This document shows, piece after piece, positions 2-41,409 of a stretch of 42,304 nucleotides of DNA; position 1 is the first letter of the stretch, and each line of letters starts with the position of its first letter. The notes under the pieces are model-generated. The model was given only the letters and a program-made list of their open reading frames with translations, had not been told where the DNA came from and did no database searches. This DNA comes from a virus: positions 1 through 42,304 of the IMG/VR virus record IMGVR_UViG_3300033150_001419, one strand, 5' to 3'. Position numbers and translations under genes: made by a program.

Positions 2-505
2 AACCCCGTCAAAATAGCCATCATCGGCCCGCATGGTGTCGGCAAGACCACGCTCATCAAACAGGTCAAGGAGAAGGTCGGTTCCGAACTTCTGACTCCT
101 CCGGAGCTTGCAAGAGATATTTTGGAAGCCCTAAAAATGGACTGGCGGGATGCGGAATGGGATCGGCTCAGGGACTTTCAGATCACATTGTTCTCATACT
201 CCCTGCTGGTATCGCAAATGCCGGGTCCGTTGCTGGCCGACAGATGCCCCTTGGATGTTCTGGCATATACAACATACCAAAATCCTGCGAACGATATAGT
301 TGGCAGAGTAATCTCCGTAACGCAGCAGGCCGTTTCGCGCTATGATTGCATTTATTTTTACCGAAAAAAAACTTGCACATCTCCTGAACAACAAGTCATC
401 CAGGAGCTTCTTATCAAACTCTGCGCCATGTTTTTGGTGGAACCGCGTTATTTCTGTAGAGATGATACGGATCGCATCGTGGAGGAGATTGCGGAGAGAT
501 ATTAG
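2..505 (+). CDS. P-loop NTPase (AAA/kinase-like), 5' truncated
   Basis: The reading frame is open from base 2, so the start lies outside the window. The first codons give a Walker A loop (GPHGVGKTT) at about residues 9-17. Later there is DRCPLDVLAY (about residue 80), a pattern seen in NadR/thymidylate-kinase-like AAA ATPases of phages. It probably binds ATP and phosphorylates or senses a nucleotide-type substrate, but the substrate cannot be read from the sequence. It is the first gene of a plus-strand group and stops 8 bases before the next ATG, so the two are probably cotranscribed. Family assignment rests on the P-loop and the DR-x-PLD motif only. Confidence 0.75.
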   Translation, partial: NPVKIAIIGPHGVGKTTLIKQVKEKVGSELLTPPELARDILEALKMDWRDAEWDRLRDFQITLFSYSLLVSQMPGPLLADRCPLDVLAYTTYQNPANDIVGRVISVTQQAVSRYDCIYFYRKKTCTSPEQQVIQELLIKLCAMFLVEPRYFCRDDTDRIVEEIAERY

Positions 506-513
506 GAGGAATT

Positions 514-1143
514 ATGACCCCGAAGGAGCGACCGATAATCTTTAGCGCGGAAATGGTCAGGGCTATCCTGGAGGGCCGGAAAACACAAACAAGAAGGCCA
601 ATAAAGCCGCAGCCGCCAGAAGGCTACAAAGATCCCTTCTATAAACGTGATGAACAGCGGTGGTTTTTCAGGGGAATTACACCGGTGGTTGTATGGCCGA
701 TAAAGGGGCTGAAGGCACCTGGCCGGCCTGGGGATAGGCTTTGGATAAAAGAAACTTGGAGAAATAATGGTCGTTGTGAAAATGGAATTCAATACAAGGC
801 TGATATGCCTGAAGAAATAGTTAGTGGATTTATGTGGAAATCTCCCATCTATATGCCACGCTGGGCATCCCGAATCACTTTAGAGATAATGGATATCCGG
901 GTTGAAAGGATACAGGATATTACTGAAAAAGATTTTTTTGCTGAAGGTAGTTATTTTTATGAAAAAGAACCCGGGTTTTCAGCGTGGCATATTGGTAGCT
1001 TCTCTTCACTTGTCAATGAAAATACATGGAAAAACGCTTTTGCTCAACTATGGGACTCCTTTGGGATCAAAAAAGGCTTTGGTTGGGACATGAACCCCTG
1101 GGTATGGGTGATCAAATTCAAAAAGCTGGAGGATGCCTCGTGA
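514..1143 (+). CDS. Phage ASCH/PUA-like hypothetical protein
   Basis: A 209-residue protein with a strong Shine-Dalgarno (taggagga) 6 bases before ATG 514. It has the layout of a widespread phage family: an N-terminal IIFSAEMVRAILEGRKTQTRR block (about residues 8-28), GRPGDRLWIKETW in the middle, then YMPRWASRITLEI followed by VERIQDIT. This fold class (ASCH/PUA-like) is thought to bind RNA or modified nucleotides; the role in phages is unknown. Its TGA overlaps the GTG of the next gene, which suggests translational coupling. No truncation is seen. Confidence 0.8.
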   Translation: MTPKERPIIFSAEMVRAILEGRKTQTRRPIKPQPPEGYKDPFYKRDEQRWFFRGITPVVVWPIKGLKAPGRPGDRLWIKETWRNNGRCENGIQYKADMPEEIVSGFMWKSPIYMPRWASRITLEIMDIRVERIQDITEKDFFAEGSYFYEKEPGFSAWHIGSFSSLVNENTWKNAFAQLWDSFGIKKGFGWDMNPWVWVIKFKKLEDAS

Positions 1144-1855
1144 CCAAAATCGAATGGGCAGATGAGACATGGAATCCCGTAACCGGCTGCACTCCCGTCT
1201 CCGAGGGCTGCAAAAACTGCTATGCCCGGCGCATGGCAAATCGGATGCGGGGACGGTTCGGATATCCGGAGGATGATCCGTTTCGGCCCGCCACCATACA
1301 CGAAGACAAACTTTCGCAGCCCCTGAAGTGGAAAGAGCCGAGAAGGATCTTTGTCTGTTCAATGGGGGATCTGTTCCGACGAAGCGATCCGTTCGAATGC
1401 GTATAGTGGTCGAACACATATATCGCCTCGAAAGGTTGGGGTACGCCAAGGGCTTTTGGGATCATGTTTGGCTCGGTGTCACCGTCGAGAATCAAAAGAG
1501 AGCCGACAAGCGTATCTCAAAGCTCCTCACGATCCCGGCAGCGCACCGGTTCGTGAGCGTCGAGCCAATGCTCGGGCCGGTGGACCTGAAGTGGATCGAG
1601 ATCACGTGTGACGATACAGCGGTGGATTTCGGGATGACGGCCGACCGTCCACCTCGGATTGACTGGGTCATCTGCGGCGGTGAGACCGGCCTGGGTGCCA
1701 GGCCCATGGACCCCGACTGGGCACGAGACCTTCGCGACCAATGCCGTGAGGCCGGCGTCCCGTTCTTCATGAAACGAATGAGCGGGGGAACCGAACCTCC
1801 TCCCGATCTCATGGTGAGGCAATGGCCGGATGCAAAGAGCAAAAATGAAAACTGA
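1140..1855 (+). pseudogene. Three-Cys-motif DUF5131 (phage Gp37/Gp68) gene, frameshifted
   Basis: Starts at GTG 1140 and reads KIEWADETWNPVTGC, then a C-x6-C-x2-CY cluster and RRIFVCSMGDLF, the standard N-terminal half of the DUF5131 family, possibly related to radical-SAM-type enzymes. That frame hits a stop at 1404-1406. The C-terminal half (VWLGVTVENQ, RFVSVEPMLGP, ICGGETG, VPFFMKRM) continues in another frame to 1855. Between the halves only about 30 codons separate GDLF from WLGVT, and the usual segment with the LTKRP motif (roughly 25 residues) is missing. A deletion with frame change is therefore more likely than a single-base sequencing error. Neighbouring genes overlap at both ends. 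Confidence 0.7.
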
Positions 1856-2285
1856 AGACCTCGGCTACATCGTCTGCCCCGAAAAGAAAAGCTTGCCTCG
1901 GGTCCACGTGGAGGCCTGCACTGCGAATTGTCGAAGACGGGCTCAATGCCCGGCATACAAAGCGGTCATTCCGATGGATCAACAACAACAAAAACAAGGA
2001 GGGAACAGCATGGCAAGGATTGGAGAAAAAACACTGGCTCAGGCGGCTGGGCTTTGCGGATCGCTGCTCCGGGAGTACGAAAATGAGATTGACCAGGCCT
2101 TCAAGAAAGCCGAAGGAGACTCCCTGTCTGTCTCCATGACCCTGAAATTCTCCCCCGCCGCCGAGGGTAGCATCAGGGTGGACGCTGGAATCAGTTTTGT
2201 GGCGGAGAAGATAAAGGATACGACTTTCACCTTTGTGGACGAGGAGCAACTCGCCATGTTTGTAGACCCTGCGAAGAAGGGCTGA
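1845..2285 (+). CDS. Hypothetical phage protein, N-terminal Cys cluster
   Basis: A protein of 146 residues from ATG 1845, which overlaps the stop of the previous gene. The N-terminal 45 residues hold five cysteines ending in CRRRAQCPAY, a possible zinc knuckle. An internal in-frame ATG at 2010 has a far better ribosome site (aaggaggg, bases 1996-2003) and would give a 91-residue protein starting MARIGEKTLAQAAG. Two products, or a fusion of two once separate small genes, are both possible. The C-terminal part (SVSMTLKFSPA...IRVDAGISFVAEKIKD) looks like a compact alpha/beta domain found in small phage proteins of unknown role. It ends 2 bases before the convergent late operon. Confidence 0.65.
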   Translation: MKTEDLGYIVCPEKKSLPRVHVEACTANCRRRAQCPAYKAVIPMDQQQQKQGGNSMARIGEKTLAQAAGLCGSLLREYENEIDQAFKKAEGDSLSVSMTLKFSPAAEGSIRVDAGISFVAEKIKDTTFTFVDEEQLAMFVDPAKKG

Positions 2286-2287
2286 CA

Positions 2288-2815
2288 TCATCGGCGTATC
2301 GCCTCGACAAGCCCTTCGAGCATGCCTTTGACATCTCCTGCCTGGACACGTTTCTCTCTGCCCCTATGCCATGCGGACACGCCCAGGATGGACGCCCAGC
2401 CCAACCAGATCCATTGGGGAACCTCGGGCACCGTTTTTCCCGCAAGCGGCAGAACAACGTAAATCCCCAGGACCGCCAAGGGCCACAGGAACCCACACCA
2501 GGGGCGCCAAGAATACTGCGGCCAATGCTCCGACTTAGCCTCCACGCGCATGGTGCGGTTGACAATGTCCAGGCGTCGGGTCAATTCACGTTCGTATTCG
2601 AGATCCGCCAGAGTGATCCTGGCAGTCGTATCTTCGGGCTGCTCCTGGAGCCGGGTCAAGACCTTGGTGGGGGTGATCTCGGCTTCATCCTCCCCCAGGG
2701 ACCGGGCAAGAGCCGACACGGCCGCGCCTGCCGCAGCGCCCGGAGGTCCCAGGAGTGCACCGCCGATCGCAGGTGCAAATCCCATGATTGCCTTGCCTAC
2801 CGCTTTCCAGTCCAT
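2288..2815 (-). CDS. Holin, three-TM type
   Basis: 175 residues starting at ATG 2815 behind ggggaggtaatcaag. The N-terminal region holds a hydrophobic Gly/Ala segment (AIGGALLGPPGAAAGAAVSA), followed by a charged helix (EITPTKVLTRLQEQPED...ELTRRLDIVNRTMRVEAKSEHWPQYSW). A C-terminal pair of membrane segments spans FLWPLAVLGIYVVLPL and WLGWASILGVSAW. This is the layout of the GTA/phage 3TM holin family (known for letting endolysin reach the wall). It is the last gene of the late operon, directly after an M15-type peptidase, as expected for a lysis cassette. A longer open frame runs upstream but belongs to the peptidase region. Confidence 0.85.
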   Translation of the reverse strand: MDWKAVGKAIMGFAPAIGGALLGPPGAAAGAAVSALARSLGEDEAEITPTKVLTRLQEQPEDTTARITLADLEYERELTRRLDIVNRTMRVEAKSEHWPQYSWRPWCGFLWPLAVLGIYVVLPLAGKTVPEVPQWIWLGWASILGVSAWHRGREKRVQAGDVKGMLEGLVEAIRR

Positions 2816-2820
2816 CTTGA

Positions 2821-3244
2821 TTACCTCCCCAAAAGATAGATGTACTCCCCGCCTCTCCGGGTCCAATACTGGGTCCGAGCCTTCGGTCGCAGATCCACAT
2901 GAAACCCGATGGGCAGGAGTTTTTCGTCCCAGTGCCAATCGAAATAGACCCCCACGCCGGTGAATCCCATGCGGGTGAGCAGGTAGAACTGCTCGCGCGG
3001 GGGAGTGTTGGTCCGGAAGTGGAAGTCGCATGCCTTGCATCCCCGGTCTTTGCGATGATAGGAGCGGGGACTGTGCCCGTGCGCGCCGTCCACGTCCACG
3101 CAGCCCCCTACCTTTGCTTTCGAGCCTGGTCTTGACCAGCATGTGGAGCAGGACCCCGTCGATCATGTCTCCCGAGCCCGGATAGAACGGATCATCGAAT
3201 TCTTCCCGGTCAAAAAAAGGGATTTTGTCCCATGGTATAGCCAT
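2821..3244 (-). CDS. M15-type peptidoglycan peptidase (endolysin), frameshifted as read
   Basis: The N-terminal part (MAIPWDKIPFF, ATG 3244) is in one frame. The catalytic part is in the next frame from about 3110 down to 2821: VDGAHGHS-x-x-SYH, CKACDFHF, GFTGVGVYFDWHW and GFHVDLRP. The His/Asp/His pattern (SYH...DFH...HVD) fits zinc D-Ala-D-Ala/L,D-peptidases of the M15A kind used as phage endolysins. The switch falls in a short G-run (ggtaggggg on the minus strand, about 3102-3112), so one lost or added base restores a protein of about 140 residues. It may be a sequencing error or a real mutation. It lies 5 bases before the holin gene. Confidence 0.75.
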
Positions 3245-3251
3245 TTTTCGC

Positions 3252-3641
3252 TTACCCGCCGATGGTGCCTTCCCATCGCTCCTCGATTTTTTCCATTCTC
3301 CTGTCACCGGCCTTGAGGCGCTCGTCAATACGCCCCAGGGTGGTGTTGATGCTGCTCAGCGCTGCAACCATAGTTTCTTTGTCTCTCTCGCGCTTGGTTT
3401 CTATTGCAGAGATATGAGCTTTCAGGTCGTCGATCTTTTGGCAGATAGTGGTTGAGCAATCACTCCTGTCCGACTTGCAATCATCTACCTGCTTCAACTT
3501 TCCCATCTCCTCTCTCATCTCACCGACATCCCTCGTTAGGTTGCGCTGAGTCAGCTTCACAATCCCCCAAGCAACTCCGGAGCCAAAGACGGCAGTGGAT
3601 AAGAGAACAATCGTATAGAGCGATTTCCACATCGTGCTCAT
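3252..3641 (-). CDS. Membrane-anchored coiled-coil protein (possible spanin-like)
   Basis: 129 residues from ATG 3641, whose ATG overlaps the upstream TGA (ATGA). A second ATG at 3632 is better spaced from aaggga and is an alternative start. One N-terminal membrane helix (SLYTIVLLSTAVFGSGVAWGIV, shown here in two parts: SLYTIVLLSTAV, FGSGVAWGIV) is followed by a long charged coiled coil and two Cys near residues 60-70 (DDCKSDRSDCS). This topology resembles inner-membrane spanin subunits, and the place next to endolysin and holin fits lysis. No outer-membrane lipoprotein partner is seen, so the role stays tentative. Confidence 0.6.
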   Translation of the reverse strand: MSTMWKSLYTIVLLSTAVFGSGVAWGIVKLTQRNLTRDVGEMREEMGKLKQVDDCKSDRSDCSTTICQKIDDLKAHISAIETKRERDKETMVAALSSINTTLGRIDERLKAGDRRMEKIEERWEGTIGG

Positions 3642-5368
3642 TCCCTTTCTTCCAGGACCCAGACGGGTCTGTGCGTCCACTCGATGGCCCCGATGTCCGG
3701 GACCTGCCTGCGTATCCTGGGCCGCCCCAGCAAGTCGCGGTCCGACAAGGTGACGCCCGAGTCCAGGGTCCCGGCGTCGATGCAGGGGGAGGTGGAGCGG
3801 AGGTGGAAGTTGCTGGTACCGGAGGGGTCGATGAAGAGGGGGTCGGCTTGGAGATTATTTTCTATTGTGTCTCCATTGCTATCCGAGGTATTCCAAGTAG
3901 AGACCGTCATTGCAGTCCCACGGTAATAAATGTTGGTAACTCCTGAACTATTATAAACTAGGTTGTTTTTGAAGGTATTGTTAAGGTTATCGGAGACGTC
4001 GTCTACTACAATTCCATACCCGTCTAAGCTATCCTTAGAATTAGCTCCACAATTGTAAATGATATTATTAGCTATAATGTTGTTTTCTTTATTATTATCT
4101 CCCTGACGCAACCTTATTCCTGCTTCTTCGCAGTTTATGATACTATTGTTGGCGACAACATTGTCATGACAAACATACGGACTAAAGGCCTGTAGGTCTA
4201 TGCCTTGCGCAGTTCCGTAGGTTTTACAAGGCGAGTTAGTTGTATCTATAATAAGATTACAAAGAAACTTGTTGTTATTGCCGTTTATCTGATTTCGAAC
4301 CGTAAAATCCTGCATAATGTTTCTAGTAACCACATTGTTATAGCATTTTCCTTCAGGGCCGCCTATGCCGACAGCACGGCAGTAAGAAACATTTTTGCCC
4401 GAAAATATATTATCACTGACTATATTATCATAAACACCGTGATAATCTGTTGACGTGACACTAATCTCAACACAATTATGTCCCCAGTTTGCGATATAAT
4501 TAGAGATAATTTTCGAATCAGTTACACCGCTAGTAAACCAAACCCCGCTAGATACAGCAACATCATTGTGCTCGTAATAAGCATTAAATTTGCTATCAAT
4601 AGTATTGTTAGTAATGAACACATTTGTTGAAGGTTCATGTGTACTTGTATTTTCTGTTACCTTTATTCCATTAGGAGAGAGTTCCCCAAAACGACATTCC
4701 GTAATAGTTATATAATTAGAATATCCCACATAAATCGAAGCAGAATATCCTCCTATGATTTGAAGATTTTCCACCTTTACACCAGTAGCCTCTTGTATAA
4801 ATAAAGGATAGTAGTATTTGCTCCCCTTTATTGAGTTATAAGTGGTTGCTGGATTTCCTTCTGAATAAACATACAGCAAAGTGTTCGAAGTGTCATAATA
4901 CCATTTGTATGTTGAATTGACCGCATTTGAAGATTCTGCTTTTATAACTTCTTGGTCGTCAATTAATAGTCTTCCTGGTGTATGACTATAAGTTATATGC
5001 CACACATTGTTTCCATCATCTGTCCAATTGCTGGATTCGTCCCAGCCGTCTACTTCTCCAATAACACTAATGGTAATAGTATCTCCTTCTCTTCCTCTTA
5101 AAATAACTGGATTATCTGCTGTGCCTGAGTCTTCTGCGTACCATCGAATAACACCTGACTCATAGTATGTCTTAGTCCCTCCAGGTGTATCAGCTCTTAT
5201 TTCAACGATGTCCCCAGAGTTTAGATCTTCATTGTTGAAGACACCCCGGATAGATGTATAATCACAGCCGCTGGAGCAAACCGTATAGGTAGTCGCCCAA
5301 GCCCGCAGGCCGATTAGAACAACCAGAACGAACAGCGTCCAAAATATCAGCCTTGTCCTGTTGCGCAT
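3638..5368 (-). CDS. Secreted right-handed beta-helix protein, tail-spike or depolymerase-like
   Basis: 576 residues. A signal-like N-terminus (RLIFWTLFVLVVLIGLRAWA) precedes many short beta-helix turns rich in N-x-I and NN (for example VENLQIIGG, ITNNTIDS, VVANNSIINC, IIANNIIYNC). The C-terminal block ADPLFIDPSG...FHLRSTSPCIDAG...DIGAIEW is the ending seen in choice-of-anchor-Q/beta-helix proteins. Such folds bind or cut polysaccharide. About bases 3860-5250 are clearly richer in A+T than the neighbours, suggesting recent acquisition of this module. A signal peptide is unusual for a virion part, so export to the host surface is an alternative to tail attachment. Confidence 0.75.
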   Translation of the reverse strand: MRNRTRLIFWTLFVLVVLIGLRAWATTYTVCSSGCDYTSIRGVFNNEDLNSGDIVEIRADTPGGTKTYYESGVIRWYAEDSGTADNPVILRGREGDTITISVIGEVDGWDESSNWTDDGNNVWHITYSHTPGRLLIDDQEVIKAESSNAVNSTYKWYYDTSNTLLYVYSEGNPATTYNSIKGSKYYYPLFIQEATGVKVENLQIIGGYSASIYVGYSNYITITECRFGELSPNGIKVTENTSTHEPSTNVFITNNTIDSKFNAYYEHNDVAVSSGVWFTSGVTDSKIISNYIANWGHNCVEISVTSTDYHGVYDNIVSDNIFSGKNVSYCRAVGIGGPEGKCYNNVVTRNIMQDFTVRNQINGNNNKFLCNLIIDTTNSPCKTYGTAQGIDLQAFSPYVCHDNVVANNSIINCEEAGIRLRQGDNNKENNIIANNIIYNCGANSKDSLDGYGIVVDDVSDNLNNTFKNNLVYNSSGVTNIYYRGTAMTVSTWNTSDSNGDTIENNLQADPLFIDPSGTSNFHLRSTSPCIDAGTLDSGVTLSDRDLLGRPRIRRQVPDIGAIEWTHRPVWVLEERE

Positions 5369-6657: not shown

Positions 6658-7923
6658 TCAATCTTCCCTCCACCTTTCTTCGTCCCACGCCAGTTTGCCC
6701 CAGGGCAGGTTGTTCCATCCGTAGCGCGAAAGATCAATGTCTTCCAGGATCCTGAACAGTAACGTCAAGTCTGATCGTACCTTTCCTGCCATGTCATAGA
6801 CTGCTGTGAGGTCGGACCGGGCAATACCCCTGACATCAAAAAGTGCCGTGAGATCCGACGTTATCCTGTTCGCTATATCGTAAACGGCAGTCAAATCAGC
6901 CTGTACAGTCGAAAGAATGTCAAAAAGCGCTGTGAAGTCAGATTGGATACGATTGAGGATGTCGAACCGTGCCGTGAGATCCGACTGCACAATCCCAGCC
7001 ATATCATAGAGACAAGTCAGGTCAGATTGCACTCGACCTGCCATATCGTAGACAAAGGTCAGGTCTGAGTTTATCCTGTTCAGAACATCAAACTTCGCTG
7101 TAAGATCGGATTGAGCCGTATTGAGTAGATCATAGACCAGAGTTAGGTCTGAGTTTACGGTGGTGGTGCCTCCCGCCCCCGCCCCGAAGTCCACCATGTA
7201 CCAGTATTGGGGGACGAGGATGGAGCAGTAGGGCTCGGCGTAGAGTTGGGCGATTTCGGCAAAAGTCAAAACTCTTTCGTATAAGGTAACAAGAGAAATT
7301 ATTCCGTCAAATCCTTCCCCTGGTGTCGCATCACCAACGTTACCTATACAAAGTGCCGCTGTTGTATCAGAACCAAATGTAACCCCGGCACTTCCACTGG
7401 TTCCTGAATCATTATCAATATATAAGCTGGGGGTGTTTCCTGACCCTCCAGTAGTTAAAACATATTGGTGTTCTCCACTTAATAATGTTTTTTCAAAACC
7501 GCTGCTAAAATCCTTACTCTCAAATTTTAACTCGTCAGCAGTATTATTTCTAGCAAATTGCCAACGCATATCAGCCGAATCCCAGCCATCCCTTTTCGCT
7601 ATTAACTGATTATGTCTAGTCTTAGTTCCGCTAAAATTCGCCCGAACAACAATAGATAATGGCCCACCACCGCCCGGATCAAGTGTGCCAATCTTAACCC
7701 TGTCATCATCATAGTTATAATATAATCCTTCGGCAACCCACTCAAGATTTTCTAAATCACTGCTGGACTCATTATGGAAAGCTAAATTGAATATCTTATT
7801 CCCCCCACCCTCATTAAGCAACCAGCACCCCACCTGTCTCTGTGCCAGGGGATGAGTCGGGTCAATCCTGCTGCCGTAGGGAGGCTTTTTGCGCGGATCT
7901 GGGTTTTTAACAAATCGGAACAT
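6658..7923 (-). CDS. LamG/ConA-like tail protein with ten 14-residue repeats
   Basis: 421 residues. Residues about 45-230 form a laminin-G/jelly-roll-like domain (LSIVVRANFSG, YVLTTGG...SLYIDND, FDGIISLVTLYERVLTFAEIAQLY), a carbohydrate-binding fold common in phage receptor-binding proteins. Residues 257-396 are exactly ten tandem 14-residue repeats with consensus x-S-D-L-T-x-x-[YF]-D-[IMV]-x-x-x-[VIA]. A Trp-rich tail (YGWNNLPWGKLAWDEERW) follows. The LamG part is more A+T-rich than the flanks. Likely a trimeric tail or fibre component that contacts the host surface. Its ATG overlaps the upstream TGA (TGATG). Confidence 0.8.
   Translation of the reverse strand: MFRFVKNPDPRKKPPYGSRIDPTHPLAQRQVGCWLLNEGGGNKIFNLAFHNESSSDLENLEWVAEGLYYNYDDDRVKIGTLDPGGGGPLSIVVRANFSGTKTRHNQLIAKRDGWDSADMRWQFARNNTADELKFESKDFSSGFEKTLLSGEHQYVLTTGGSGNTPSLYIDNDSGTSGSAGVTFGSDTTAALCIGNVGDATPGEGFDGIISLVTLYERVLTFAEIAQLYAEPYCSILVPQYWYMVDFGAGAGGTTTVNSDLTLVYDLLNTAQSDLTAKFDVLNRINSDLTFVYDMAGRVQSDLTCLYDMAGIVQSDLTARFDILNRIQSDFTALFDILSTVQADLTAVYDIANRITSDLTALFDVRGIARSDLTAVYDMAGKVRSDLTLLFRILEDIDLSRYGWNNLPWGKLAWDEERWRED
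6736..7155 (-). repeat. Ten tandem 42-bp units coding 14-residue SDLT repeats
   Basis: The ten units are in frame and contiguous (residues 257-396 of the LamG protein). Each carries SDLT (one SDFT, one QADLT) followed by a Tyr/Phe-Asp pair. Linker positions vary (MAGRV, LNRI, IANRI, VRGIA). The base sequence of the units has diverged much more than the protein pattern, so this is an old, selected repeat and not a fresh slippage array. Confidence 0.95.
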
Positions 7924-8366
7924 CAGGCTACCGTCTCGCCGTAGGTGTTATACTTGACTGTGTTTCCGCTTGCTGCCAGGGCTGCTCCGGCCTTATTCTG
8001 CACGAGGATCTTGAACTGATCAGGCGTGGCCATAAGCATCCTTGCAAACACCCGCTGGGTCATAGCTCCTGTCCCCTCTCTCAGGGGGATGATCGCATCA
8101 GGAGCACGGGCAGGCTCCACACTTGATCCCCCATCCTCGAAATTCGTTCCATCCGAGCGGGCTATGAGCCAGATATAGATTACGGGGTTAGTGGACGAGG
8201 ACAAATCCACCGATGCCAGGTAGACCTCAATATCCACAAAAAGGTCCTTGTTTGTGCTGTTGTCTATGGCAGAGCTGATCGCAAGCCCATCGTCGGCCAA
8301 ACTGTCCAGATCTGTACTGAGGGCTGTCGTCCATGACCCATAGCCGGTCCAGGTTACTTCTCCCAT
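7923..8366 (-). CDS. Phage virion structural protein
   Basis: 147 residues from ATG 8366. The pattern TWTGYGSWTTALSTDLDSLADDGLAISSAIDN...DLFVDIEVYLASVDL...PVIYIWLIARSDGTNFEDG is typical of a small beta-rich virion protein carried next to tail-fibre genes in many phages. No catalytic motif. It is immediately upstream of the LamG-repeat gene with stop and start overlapping, and probably forms part of the same tail assembly. Confidence 0.7.
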   Translation of the reverse strand: MGEVTWTGYGSWTTALSTDLDSLADDGLAISSAIDNSTNKDLFVDIEVYLASVDLSSSTNPVIYIWLIARSDGTNFEDGGSSVEPARAPDAIIPLREGTGAMTQRVFARMLMATPDQFKILVQNKAGAALAASGNTVKYNTYGETVA

Positions 8367-32576: not shown

Positions 32577-33407
32577 TCACACGTTCCATAGCTCGCCTCT
32601 GGTTTTGGGTTTTTGCTGTTGGGGCGAAGCCCGCGCCTTGTCTTGCGCCCTGGACAGCCAAGAATTGATGTGCCGAAGGATCCCCCTGGAGGTTTTTCGG
32701 TTCTTGGGGTTGGCCAGGTTCCAGCCTTTGAGCTTTTTCAGTTCCCCCAGGATATCGACCGCAGGATAGAGGTCCGTCCACTCGTCGATCATCTGTTGCG
32801 TGACGGGATACTCTTGAGGCTTGCCGTCTCCGTTGCGGTGGATCAGGGGGATTGTGATAACGGGCTTTACGGGCGGGGACGGCGGCGCGGCGCGATCTTT
32901 ATCGCGTCGTGCAGACTTCAAAGAATCTCTATGGGTATTATTTATTAAATACCTAGGTACTGTCTCTTCTTTCTTTACATTCTTTACATTCTTGTTTGTG
33001 TTACTTGGTTGATACTTGGTTGTTACTTGGTTGTTACTTGGTTGTTCCTTTGGTTGTTCCTCTTTAGTTAATTCAGATTGATATTTATCCCAATTACAGA
33101 TAGTTACGACACTATAATGGGTGTTACTTTGGATGTTCAAATTTTCAAGTTTTTTTAATTTCAACATGCGCTTATACGTAGATGTGGGTTTATCGCCTAA
33201 TTCCGCCGCTGCCTGGTTGCGTCCGAAGATAAACTGGCCCGGCTGAAGCTTAACTTCAGTTTGGCCTCGTCCTGTAGTAACAGTAACCCAACGCTCTTCA
33301 TGGCTAGCCTTCATCAAACACCAACTCCATAGCTGCCATAGGGCTTTGTTCTTAAAAATAGAAGTCCGAAGGCTTTTTCTGTAGAGTTTAACCCATCCAT
33401 CTTCCAT
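32577..33407 (-). CDS. Replication initiator-like protein (phage O / DnaD-type)
   Basis: 276 residues from ATG 33407 (MEDGWVKLYRKSL); an in-frame ATG at 33419 is possible but adds no homologous residues. The N-terminal 110 residues form a winged-helix domain (QFIFGRNQAAAELG...STYKRMLKLKKLENL), followed by a Lys/Gln/Asn/Thr linker and a C-terminal helix region (WTDLYPAVDILGELKKLKGWNLANPKNRKTSRGILRHINSWL) seen in phage replication proteins that recruit the DnaB helicase. The helicase is encoded 700 bases upstream in the same direction, with the cassette-like units between them. Confidence 0.7.
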   Translation of the reverse strand: MEDGWVKLYRKSLRTSIFKNKALWQLWSWCLMKASHEERWVTVTTGRGQTEVKLQPGQFIFGRNQAAAELGDKPTSTYKRMLKLKKLENLNIQSNTHYSVVTICNWDKYQSELTKEEQPKEQPSNNQVTTKYQPSNTNKNVKNVKKEETVPRYLINNTHRDSLKSARRDKDRAAPPSPPVKPVITIPLIHRNGDGKPQEYPVTQQMIDEWTDLYPAVDILGELKKLKGWNLANPKNRKTSRGILRHINSWLSRAQDKARASPQQQKPKTRGELWNV

Positions 33408-33457
33408 TGCTAATTCCATTCAACCACGAAGGGCCTGTGGGGGAAAGACAACCCGCC

Positions 33458-33512
33458 CCATAACGTTTTAGTTCAGCGGTACGAAGCATCCGTCCGAAAC
33501 GGCTTGTTAGCC
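33458..33512 (-). other. attC-like site after cassette unit B (degenerate)
   Basis: Read on the minus strand: GGCTAAC (33512-33506), then AAGCCG, a GGACGG-type inner arm, CCGCTGAA, and GTTATGG (33464-33458). Length 55 bp. The outer boxes pair except for one position and the inner arms only loosely. The ORF above ends inside it, as often happens in integron cassettes. Confidence 0.4.
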
Positions 33513-33721
33513 GACATTAAAAGCGGCTGTAGGGGTTTATTGAACGTCAACACATTGAGCCATATTCTTCCGCTGAACAAAATTTTCAGTCGTTCTCTAA
33601 TAGACGGCTTCCAACAGGTTATAATTTCACCATCTTCCATTTTTAGTGCTGGCAACGGCCTATATTCTGGCTGATTTTCAGCATAGGTCACATTGCACTC
33701 TGGAAATTTTACGATGTCCAT
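33473..33721 (-). CDS. Conserved small phage protein (cassette unit B)
   Basis: 82 residues from ATG 33721 behind gaaaggaaaaat. It starts MDIVKFPECNVTYAENQPEYRPLPA and continues CWKPSIRERLKILFSGRIWLNVLTFNKPLQP, a small conserved phage protein of unknown role (the PEYRPLPA...CW-x-x-[ST]-x-x-ER...GRIWL pattern is characteristic). The start lies 19 bases after a GTTAGCC box and the stop falls inside an attC-like site, so it has the form of an integron gene cassette. Confidence 0.65.
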   Translation of the reverse strand: MDIVKFPECNVTYAENQPEYRPLPALKMEDGEIITCWKPSIRERLKILFSGRIWLNVLTFNKPLQPLLMSANKPFRTDASYR

Positions 33722-33733
33722 ATTTTTCCTTTC

Positions 33734-33792
33734 GGCTAACGCTGAGGGTGAGCGGACGCTGAAAAACGCGCCGCTCACCCCGCTTGTTAGCC
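33734..33792 (-). other. attC-like site (59 bp) between cassette units A and B
   Basis: Perfect nested inverted repeat. Plus strand: GGCTAAC, 5-base spacer, GGGTGAGCGG, 15-base loop, CCGCTCACCC, 5-base spacer, GTTAGCC. The outer 7-bp boxes and the inner 10-bp arms pair fully, with unpaired spacers between them, which is the attC plan (R, spacer, L). The box GTTAGCC differs from the usual GTTRRRY at one base, matched by the complementary change in the other box. Confidence 0.55.
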
Positions 33793-33805
33793 ACCTGTTA
33801 TGAGT

Positions 33806-34027
33806 TTAGAACATTGCCTTTTCGGAATTAGTCACTTCCCGATAGGCAGTTTCAAATGTTTCTTTTGGAGACCACGACGTGTATCCATCTGGATATTTCA
33901 CGAGGTATCCGGGCCGTGTTTCACGATTTGATACGTCCTGCCCCTTGAAGTCTTTAAGGAAAGAACATTCGTCAAGGGGGTAAGCAGCGATGATCTTTGA
34001 TCCGATGTACAACTTTTCTTCTGGCAT
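33806..34027 (-). CDS. Conserved small phage protein (cassette unit A)
   Basis: 73 residues from ATG 34027 behind aaaggagtc. Reads KLYIGSKIIAAYPLDECSFLKDF, then DVSNRETRPGYLVKYPDGYTSWSPKETFETAYR. This YPDGY-x-SWSPK family occurs in many phages; function unknown. A GTTAGCC box lies 24 bases upstream and an attC-like hairpin starts 13 bases after the stop. Confidence 0.65.
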   Translation of the reverse strand: MPEEKLYIGSKIIAAYPLDECSFLKDFKGQDVSNRETRPGYLVKYPDGYTSWSPKETFETAYREVTNSEKAMF

Positions 34028-34050
34028 AATGACTCCTTTCTTGTTTTGGT

Positions 34051-34057
34051 GGCTAAC
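34051..34057 (-). other. GTTAGCC box ahead of cassette unit A
   Basis: Third exact copy of the GTTAGCC box, oriented as the others. It interrupts a short open frame that starts at 34108 (MNRRHMQKKLREAHNRK) and overlaps the DnaB stop; this frame runs on in phase into unit A. It would be the upstream boundary of a 317-bp cassette (34056-33740). Confidence 0.4.
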
Positions 34058-34100
34058 CTTTCGATTATGGGCTTCCCGGAGCTTCTTTTGCATATGTCGT

Positions 34101-35816
34101 CTATTCATCCCAATACCGATCCGGATTCGCCCAGTCGTCGAGCTTTTGGGTCCAGCGATCAAACCGCAGCACAGTTTTCCATGTGCCTACATCCCGGCCT
34201 TTCAGTCCCGCCACTTCCATGGCCTCGGCCTCGTTGTCCTCACGATACAAGCCGATCACCACGTCGGCGTTCTCCTCCAGACGGCCGGAGTTATGGGTAA
34301 CAAGCCCATTTGCCAAGAAAGCTCCGGTAGCAGGGACATTGATATCCCAAACAGACTGAACGCCACTTGGCTCAATAGTTCGTATCGACTCAAATTGAAT
34401 ATCATTGTCGGCCCACAGCCGTGCAGTAGCTACCTTATCGTGGCCCTTTAAGCCTCCAAGGGGCACCCATCCACGTTCAGTAAGCACCGGATGGTTGGTT
34501 GTTCCGATGATTTCCCTCCCGGTTTGCGTAACGACTCGCAAAGTTGGCTTTTGCCCCCGCCACCACTTGCGCCTCACCTCCGCCATTGTAACCCGCATTT
34601 CTTTTTGGTTGTACGCAAGGATGACTTGTCCCGGCTTAACGTCTCCCAATGTAACCGGACACCCGCTTATGGCGTCTATCAGCATGGTTCCACCCACAAG
34701 ACATTCCCTCATGTCACTTAGCATGGGCCGCCTGTTGGACCGCGCCTCGACAGCTCGGTTGAGCTGGCAGAGGATCACGACAGGGACCTTGAGATCCTTT
34801 GCAAGACTCGTAAGCATTTCGGAGATGTACCCAAGCTCCAGGTGTTGGCTCTGGTGGCGTTTCAGGCTGCTCATCCGGATGATATGATCGACAAAGATAC
34901 AGCTTACAGGCATTTCAAAATGGATTGCTTCGGATATCGCCTGCAAGTTTTCGATTTTTTTGTATTTTGGTTTGTCGATGATGATAAGGCGGGAGGAGGA
35001 GATGGCATCGCACGTCTTGATGAGCCTTGACCACTGGCCATCCTCGATGTTGCCGCTGCGGATCCGGGAGAGCCAAATCGCCGACCGGGCCGACAGCCTT
35101 CTCCTGGTGAGAGCCTTGGCGTTGGATTCCAAAGCGAAAAACAGAGCATGCCCAGGCTCATGATCCGCTATATGGTCCGCCATGGTGAGGGCCAGAGCGG
35201 TCTTTCCCACGGAGGGCCTTGCGATGATATACACCGTGGTTTCGGGCTCCAGGCCGCCCATGTGATGGTCGATGTTGCCAAGACCCGTGAGGATGCCGGG
35301 GTTTGTTTTCCCCTCTGCTCGCCGCCGCTCGATGTCCCTGTAGACCTCATTGACCAGGGAGCTTGGCGGGAGCCAATCCTCGCCGGTGGTCTGGGCCTCG
35401 ATGGCCTGGATGGAGGATCTGAGGCCCGACAGAACGCCGTCCACTTCGGATGCGGCATCGGTGGCGTGGGCCATAGCCTCGTGGCAAGCCCGGATGATAC
35501 GCCTGCGCTTTGCCATCTCCTTGACTTGCCGGAGATGGTAGTCGATGGCTGTAGCGGTGGGAATCTCGGCGGCCAAATCGAAGATGTACTCGGCCTTGAT
35601 TTTCCCCTTGCCGGATAGCTTGTCGACCGCCTCCGTCACGGCCAGAGGGTCCCCGACAGGGGCCGATTGGAGGGCCTCCCATATCAGGGCATGCTTCCGG
35701 GAATAAAAATCCCCTGGAGCCAAGCTCTTGGTGGCCCTGGCCCGTGCCCCGGCGTCCAGGATACAGGCCCCGAGGACGTAGCGCTCGGAGTCTACGCAGC
35801 TTGGGAGTTCCGGCAT
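34101..35816 (-). CDS. dnaB: DnaB-type replicative helicase carrying a mini-intein
   Basis: 571 residues as translated; 433 after intein removal. N-terminal DnaB domain (VLGACILDAG...FYSRKHALIWEA), Walker A ARPSVGKTAL (about 199-208), Walker B SCIFVDHI (about 305-312), then LCQLNRAVEARSNRRPMLSDMRE. The intein (372-509) sits after this Glu, and the helicase continues SGRLEENADVVIGLYR, the normal DnaB motif. The intein begins with Cys and ends His-Asn before Ser. The helicase unwinds DNA at the phage fork. Its first bases overlap the gene upstream by 25 bases. Confidence 0.9.
   Translation of the reverse strand: MPELPSCVDSERYVLGACILDAGARARATKSLAPGDFYSRKHALIWEALQSAPVGDPLAVTEAVDKLSGKGKIKAEYIFDLAAEIPTATAIDYHLRQVKEMAKRRRIIRACHEAMAHATDAASEVDGVLSGLRSSIQAIEAQTTGEDWLPPSSLVNEVYRDIERRRAEGKTNPGILTGLGNIDHHMGGLEPETTVYIIARPSVGKTALALTMADHIADHEPGHALFFALESNAKALTRRRLSARSAIWLSRIRSGNIEDGQWSRLIKTCDAISSSRLIIIDKPKYKKIENLQAISEAIHFEMPVSCIFVDHIIRMSSLKRHQSQHLELGYISEMLTSLAKDLKVPVVILCQLNRAVEARSNRRPMLSDMRECLVGGTMLIDAISGCPVTLGDVKPGQVILAYNQKEMRVTMAEVRRKWWRGQKPTLRVVTQTGREIIGTTNHPVLTERGWVPLGGLKGHDKVATARLWADNDIQFESIRTIEPSGVQSVWDINVPATGAFLANGLVTHNSGRLEENADVVIGLYREDNEAEAMEVAGLKGRDVGTWKTVLRFDRWTQKLDDWANPDRYWDE
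34290..34703 (-). other. Mini-intein in DnaB, 138 residues
   Basis: Residues 372-509 of the translated helicase. Block A: CLVGGTMLI with Cys1. Block B: GTTNHPVLT (the T-x-x-H motif). Block F/G: VWDINVPATGAFLANGLVTHN, ending His-Asn, followed by Ser+1 of the C-extein. No homing-endonuclease domain (no LAGLIDADG pair) and almost no linker, so it is near the minimum size for splicing. The site splits LS-D-MRE from SG, inside the conserved DnaB motif near the nucleotide site, a usual intein position. Confidence 0.9.
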
Positions 35817-40774: not shown

Positions 40775-40978
40775 ATGACGGTAGCAGAAATGAAAATGAA
40801 GAAAATCGTTATCAAGAATTGCAGTGCCGAAGATGTCGAAAACGCAGTGAAGGCATGCTTCGCGGCACTCTATCACCCATTTTTGGTCGAAGATGCTCCG
40901 CTCATCATCATGTCGGCCCATCGTTATGCCTTTAGGCAGAAAGGGAAGGATTATGGATACAGGCGAAGGAAGGTTTAA
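40775..40978 (+). CDS. Hypothetical small phage protein
   Basis: 67 residues from ATG 40775 behind gcaggagaacacc. Reads KMKKIVIKNCSAEDVENAVKACFAALYHPFLVEDAPLIIM in two blocks: a strand, a helix, and a basic C-terminus (RRRKV). The end overlaps the next gene by 26 bases. No family recognised. Confidence 0.6.
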   Translation: MTVAEMKMKKIVIKNCSAEDVENAVKACFAALYHPFLVEDAPLIIMSAHRYAFRQKGKDYGYRRRKV

Positions 40979-41141
40979 ACAACTTAATAATTTAGCAGAG
41001 CTTAAGGATCTTAGAGAAAAATATCCTAAATCAAAGGGTGTTTTTACAGTTGGCGAAGAGCTGGAGATTAAGGGGAGCAAGTTCAAGGTAAAAGATATTT
41101 CTCCTTTTGGGATCAAGCTCAAATTATTAAAACAGGCATAA
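40953..41141 (+). CDS. Conserved small phage protein
   Basis: 62 residues from ATG 40953 (MDTGEGRFKQLNNLAEL), with aagggaagg upstream and a 26-base overlap with the previous gene. The C-terminal half, FTVGEELEIKGSKFKVKDISPFGIKLKLL, is a compact beta domain known from small phage proteins (starts M-[DE]-x-G-x-[FG]-x-x-x). The stop lies inside the next structured region. Function unknown. Confidence 0.65.
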   Translation: MDTGEGRFKQLNNLAELKDLREKYPKSKGVFTVGEELEIKGSKFKVKDISPFGIKLKLLKQA

Positions 41142-41257
41142 CAATCCACTGGAGCGGATTGCTAATACTTGCGGGTAACGTATTGGTCTTTGAGTTTCGG
41201 GTGGCCACGTAAACGAGGTGGGGTCGTTACCCGCAACCGCTCAGCTAAACGTTATAA
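41136..41257 (+). ncRNA. Large inverted repeat, attC-like or RNA stem
   Basis: A perfect 12-bp inverted repeat (TTGCGGGTAACG/CGTTACCCGCAA, 41173-41184 with 41229-41240) sits inside an outer pair ATAAC/GTTAT (41138-41142 with 41251-41255) and a CTG-G-AGCGG/CCGCTCAG arm that leaves one unpaired G. Outer box, unpaired spacer, inner arm with one extra base is the attC plan. Yet it may equally be the first stem of a structured RNA that runs to 41409. Confidence 0.4.
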
Positions 41258-41409
41258 AGAGGTCGGTGATTCCACCGATGTAAACCGCGTCGGAAAGTCA
41301 ACGCAGTAACCCAACCACCGGCAAAAGGAAAGGGGTTGAAAGTGTTTCAGTCATAGAAGAGTCACAAGGTCACTTGCGCCCTTCCCCACCAGAGCCGGGG
41401 TGGGGAGGG
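41258..41409 (+). ncRNA. Hairpin-rich non-coding stretch before the 41441 gene
   Basis: No gene seen. Stems: TCGGTG/CACCGA (41263-41268 with 41273-41278), GCGT/ACGC (41287-41290 with 41301-41304), AACCC/GGGTT (41308-41312 with 41333-41337) and an 11-bp stem ending CCCCACC/GGTGGGG (41380-41390 with 41399-41409). The last hairpin is followed by a short T run and then the SD (ggaggagga) of the next gene, so it might terminate or gate transcription. Confidence 0.4.

Follow-up and report, generated by a model that had tools for sequence, protein, structure and literature searches.

How did small single-gene units resembling the cassettes of integrons come to lie in the replication module of a phage? 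This question is raised by a 42.3-kb IMG/VR virus record, whose whole stretch of 42,304 nucleotides is called the window in the following. The record carries genes for phage terminase, portal and head proteins, DnaB, a DnaD-like helicase loader and RecE/RecT. Two of the units, A and B, lie on the minus strand with DnaB on one side and the helicase loader on the other. DnaB itself contains an in-frame intein (34101-35816; Pfam Intein_splicing, residues 389-509). An earlier note on this DNA had read A and B as integron-like cassettes, a reading that is supported by their boundaries, their self-complementary boxes, their attC-like ends and an empty site in a related phage. We conclude that A, B and a third unit, C, are integron gene cassettes that encode no integrase themselves, probably inserted at G / TT by the integron integrase of a bacterial host.

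The three boxes described in the earlier note are all present on the minus strand (GTTAGCC at 34057-34051 and at 33740-33734, GTTATGG at 33464-33458). Both A and B consist of one ORF, a start box exactly complementary to their own R'' and an attC-like 3' end. The cassette plan proposed for the two units applies in full to A, which has an R box, a leader with a ribosome-binding site, an ORF and the arrangement R''-L''...L'-R', and in part to B. In A, the 59-nt hairpin with 7-bp boxes, 5-base spacers and 10-bp arms is built as claimed (7 + 5 + 10 + 15 loop + 10 + 5 + 7). As single-stranded DNA, it folds with -23 kcal/mol (z of -5.4 and -5.9 for the two strands), and no shuffled sequence was equally stable. 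The extrahelical base usual in L'' is absent from attC A, where a bulge is found only near the loop. The hairpin of B had been described as weaker and as containing the ORF stop, both of which hold (z -1.3 to -1.7). When B is treated as an excised circle, in which R' is its own TTAGCC, the outer boxes pair in 7/7 positions (z -1.5). The R'' of attC B doubles as coding sequence for conserved ANKP residues of the ORF B family; judging from this overlap, attC B may have formed within its gene. The start codons lie 23 bases (A) and 12 bases (B) after the end of the box, which corrects the distance of 19-24 bases given previously. The first box interrupts a short ORF that begins at the DnaB stop, as had been noted; this ORF starts at 34108 and is cut at G / TT.

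A third cassette, C, which was missed in the earlier note and lies outside the coordinates given there, was found 7 kb away on the plus strand. It follows the same plan of R box, short leader, one ORF and attC. Its attC site has an L stem with an extrahelical base and a long terminal structure, is better than attC B, and folds with a z of -4.1 in the excised form. The stop codon of ORF C lies in R'', as is the case in a related array (L003, see below). Taking out C at G / TT opens a 68-codon ORF, located downstream of the recombination module. Considering R''/R', spacers and L stem together, the attC sites of A and C are clear and that of B is weak. The GC content is 0.42-0.47 in the three cassettes versus 0.54 for the window; a search against Rfam gave no match. 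The features are listed in Table 1.

Table 1. Positions of the cassettes, their attC sites and the interrupted phage ORFs in the window.
Feature	Position	Strand	Remark
DnaB helicase gene with in-frame intein	34101..35816	-	Upstream of target 1
Left half of target-1 ORF (MNRRHMQKKLREAHNRK..)	34057..34108	-	Start in DnaB stop; last base is the G of box 1
Start box 1, G / TTAGCC	34051..34057	-	Reverse complement of attC A R'' (GGCTAAC)
Cassette A, 317 bp	33740..34056	-	Spans TT of box 1 through G of box 2
ORF A, 73 aa	33806..34027	-	PHROG 9467/32732/872 phage family
attC A, 59 nt	33734..33792	-	R'' GGCTAAC, 5-nt spacers, 10-bp L stem, R' GTTAGCC
Cassette B, 276 bp	33464..33739	-	Spans TT of box 2 through G of box 3
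ORF B, 82 aa, conserved phage protein	33473..33721	-	Stop within attC B
attC B (weak)	33458..33512	-	R'' GGCTAAC; R' GTTATGG forms the target-1 junction
Right half of target-1 ORF (..VMGRVVFPPQALRG*)	33420..33463	-	Homologous to L002
DnaD-like helicase loader gene	32577..33419	-	Downstream of target 1
Left half of target-2 ORF (MTVAEMKMKKIVIKNCSAEDVENAVKACFAALYHPFLVEDAPLIIMSAHR..)	40775..40923	+	
Start box of cassette C, G / TTATGC	40923..40929	+	Reverse complement of its own R''
Cassette C, 328 bp	40924..41251	+	
ORF C, 62 aa (MDTGEGRF...), conserved phage protein	40953..41141	+	Stop TAA within R''
attC C	41136..41257	+	R'' GCATAAC; R' GTTATAA at the target-2 junction
Right half of target-2 ORF (..YKEVGDSTDVNRVGKSTQ*)	41252..41309	+	

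A circular excised cassette requires a start box complementary to its own R''. In A, B and C this complement is exact (7/7). Without any trained profile, such perfect pairs enclose three of the 147 small ORFs of the window, where 0.07 would be expected (P ~5e-5). Elsewhere they were found for 9 of 6,257 small ORFs, five of them in L003 and one in L124, two phage loci described below, and for 2 of 4,220 in background loci. A detector based on the start-box/R'' rule recovered three units in the window and none in 40 Markov copies of it; with a fitting ORF, the same detector found 6 to 7 units in 1.76 Mb of other phage loci, three of which are in L124. Chains of at least two units, again identified without a trained model, occurred at three places in 2.74 Mb of loci and were absent from Markov-shuffled copies. 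The start-box/R'' detector also scored L170. In L104 and L234/L235, the perfect start-box pairs appear to be coincidental.

The attC sites were additionally scored for box profiles, box pairing and L stem with a scorer trained on 24 attC sites from class 1, Shewanella and Vibrio integrons. Leave-one-out scores of the training sites ranged from 22.8 to 49.8, and the held-out attC of phage TJE1 reached 41.3. With 43.6, attC A ranked first among the attC-like sites of 1.73 Mb of phage DNA. For attC B, the score was 31.2, near background, and 37.4 as excised circle; attC C obtained 37.1, and 43.6 as circle, in the same scan (41136-41257, plus strand). A crude covariance model of our own with 7 base pairs, which also misses the attC of TJE1, gave 14.9 bits for attC A (E 0.18), and its top match in the window was a chance site at 7905-7953. 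This last result would fit an explanation by chance, according to which the units are small phage genes separated by terminator or operator hairpins that happen to resemble attC sites, as would the position of attC A, a strong hairpin close to a stop codon, and the occurrence of homologues of A, B and C between ordinary genes without attC. Such coincidence is, however, very improbable in the light of the start-box/R'' complementarity in three units, the lack of unit chains in shuffled DNA, the clear arrays in L003 and L124, which follow the same plan, and the empty site described next.

When the flanks of A and B are joined between G and TT, an ORF of 31 codons results (MNRRHMQKKLREAHNRKVMGRVVFPPQALRG). 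The same ORF is present without interruption (...QKKPWESFNGNVKGWVVFPPQA...) in the phage contig L002, just upstream of its helicase loader gene; L002 had been found via the helicase loader, with 73% identity over the matched N-terminal part. At the DNA level, L002 aligns with the joined flanks ungapped over the junction, matching 29 of 34 bases on the right and 28 of 45 on the left. A value of 28 was reached by only 1 of ~84,500 placements on both strands of the window; between L002 and the end of attC B, only 15 of 45 bases agree. The ungapped match indicates that the insertion consists of exactly A and B. The earlier note had looked to a relative lacking units for a clean boundary between G and TT, and L002 provides it. 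It is the only empty-site relative that was found in IMG/VR (~70% identity). Searches with DnaB as query found no relatives. For target 2, no empty relative was found; the sole match, L219, was rejected as a chance match of 15 residues. The single match to the target-1 motif in a bacterial genome, Geosporobacter (L184), lies in an unrelated reading frame, and integrase searches around this one bacterial locus gave nothing above the cut-off.

Both targets are phage ORFs and share the junction G / TTAT (G / TTATGG at target 1 and G / TTATAA at target 2), and the insertions are flanked by phage genes. The cassettes are thus joined to sites that are neither attI nor attC, with cleavage at G / TT, as is characteristic of attG sites. 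The reported minimal requirement of IntI1 at secondary sites is GNT, extended to GTTRRRY (PMC10127599), and cassettes are reported to enter bacterial genomes at attG sites (Loot et al. 2024, Nat Microbiol 9:228, as cited in PMC12901181). We propose that an integrase supplied by the bacterial host would act on the folded attC of circular cassettes and on short G / TT sites of the phage, in a reaction of the attC x attG type. One or two such events would have placed A and B in the small ORF between DnaB and the helicase loader, and a separate event would have placed C in the small ORF downstream of the recombination module.

The presence of cassettes in phages as such is not new. The earlier note had considered them rare or unreported, but Qi et al. 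2023 already reported 17 clusters of attC sites lacking an integrase (CALINs) from phages, and some of these attC sites recombine with attI1 through IntI1 (PMC9892861). For their phages, these authors suggested entry by homologous or illegitimate recombination (PMC9892861). Applied to the window, genuine cassettes would have been carried in with a piece of a bacterial array, which is conceivable since recombination in phages is free and this one has RecE/RecT-type genes. The data nevertheless make this route unlikely: on both sides of target 1 the phage sequence resumes at G / TT with no base gained or lost relative to L002, the G / TTAT junction is common to two separate insertions, and no flanking integron remnant such as an attI or a partial cassette was seen. 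Given the clean empty site, site-specific entry is favoured here over the type of recombination suggested by Qi et al.

No match to PF00589 recombinases was found in the record of the window, which hence contains no IntI and, lacking an intI gene, no complete integron. A and B constitute a CALIN, that is, at least two attC sites close together without intI, if the weak attC B is counted; attC C stands alone with its single cassette. We infer that the enzyme was an IntI and that it came from the host. It is also conceivable that another recombinase, carried for example by a related phage, moved the cassettes. A tyrosine recombinase does adjoin the array in L124 and has a weak match to the integron integrase model (31.8 bits, cut-off 265), yet its best family is that of ordinary phage integrases (PHROG 1). 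Since the record of the window is also devoid of PF00589 and those of L003 and L002 gave no match to TIGR02249, we assign this alternative a very small probability.

Two related phages carry larger arrays. In L003 (IMGVR_UViG_3300022542_000228), positions 429-4203 hold at least eight integron-type cassettes with small ORFs, located upstream of a loader homologous to that of the window; several of these units have 9/9 box complements, and the individual hairpins are modest. L124 (IMGVR_UViG_3300008516_000145), which was retrieved through its homologue of ORF A, contains about five cassettes at 3613-4863 adjoining this homologue and shares portal and head PHROGs with the window. It is possible, though we advance it only tentatively, that related phages regularly gain small accessory phage genes as cassettes, with host integrases inserting circles at G / TT beside replication and recombination genes, and that some of them, as in L003 and L124, grew arrays. 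In L124, short tandem repeats occur at 3040-3400 within a gene upstream of the cassette array.

The products of the three cassettes are members of phage protein families that have many homologues outside cassettes. These homologues were tested for cassette boundaries, and almost all are without them; one homologue (L121) has a box with one mismatch. Most homologues have no attC, so that it is this lineage, and not the gene families, that is characterized by the cassette state. ORF A is homologous to the N-terminal part of proteins annotated as DUF2829 and is predicted with high confidence to form a small domain with a beta/alpha fold. Its fold and the DUF2829 annotation had suggested the anti-defence protein Tad2. 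As the structural match is insignificant (E 0.57, TM 0.41) and Pfam gave no DUF2829 match, no Tad2 function is claimed for ORF A. The structure model of ORF B is poor (pLDDT 49). Each cassette is oriented as the neighbouring phage genes and would therefore be readable from phage promoters, which may stand in for an integron promoter. The cassettes may continue to recombine, and their cargo may benefit the phage.

The units resemble the phage CALINs of Qi et al. 2023 (PMC9892861) in that attC cassettes without an integrase, containing small ORFs that lack an assigned function, reside in a phage. They differ in that the boundary is fixed at G / TT by an empty-site relative, in that two separate insertion sites exist in one genome, and in that C, as a single cassette, would be missed by the rule of two attC sites applied there. 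Phage-borne cassettes had already been published; the empty site, the two separate sites in one phage and the phage-type cargo are new. As in the attG insertions of Loot et al. 2024, to the extent that they are described in the citing paper, cassettes are found outside integrons at short, non-classical sites; those insertions were described for bacterial genomes, whereas the target here is a phage, and the likeness is drawn without comparison to the attG consensus. With mobile and sedentary chromosomal integrons, the units share R boxes, L stems, one ORF, a short leader and a stop in or near R''; unlike in these, the search revealed no intI, and the cassettes occupy two places and are directed as the phage operons.

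The route by which cassettes enter phages had previously not been known, and accidental recombination had been proposed. Integrase-driven capture is suggested by the empty site cut at G / TT, together with a second, similar insertion elsewhere in the genome, and thereby becomes testable. If this is true, integrons would provide a route of gene exchange between phages too, beyond bacteria; if it is general, phages would be able to draw on the cassettes available in their hosts, and genes of phages could travel as cassettes.

Some further structures were observed in the related loci. An attC-like hairpin lies directly 3' of the ORF A homologue in L122 (5242-5301); its R' box is altered, and it is possibly a decayed site. 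Downstream of a replication gene, L175 has consecutive short genes (3115-5230), which include the closest homologue of ORF B and are separated by putative attC-like remnants and repeated GTTAGAAAGGGGGAAGCGATGGA leaders. In L220 (2900-3400), an AT-rich palindrome, TGTAAATTAAATTTACA, precedes consecutive small genes and is perhaps a phage operator or promoter. Finally, a gene at 6696-7130 of L175 encodes a protein built of short DSVW-type repeats.
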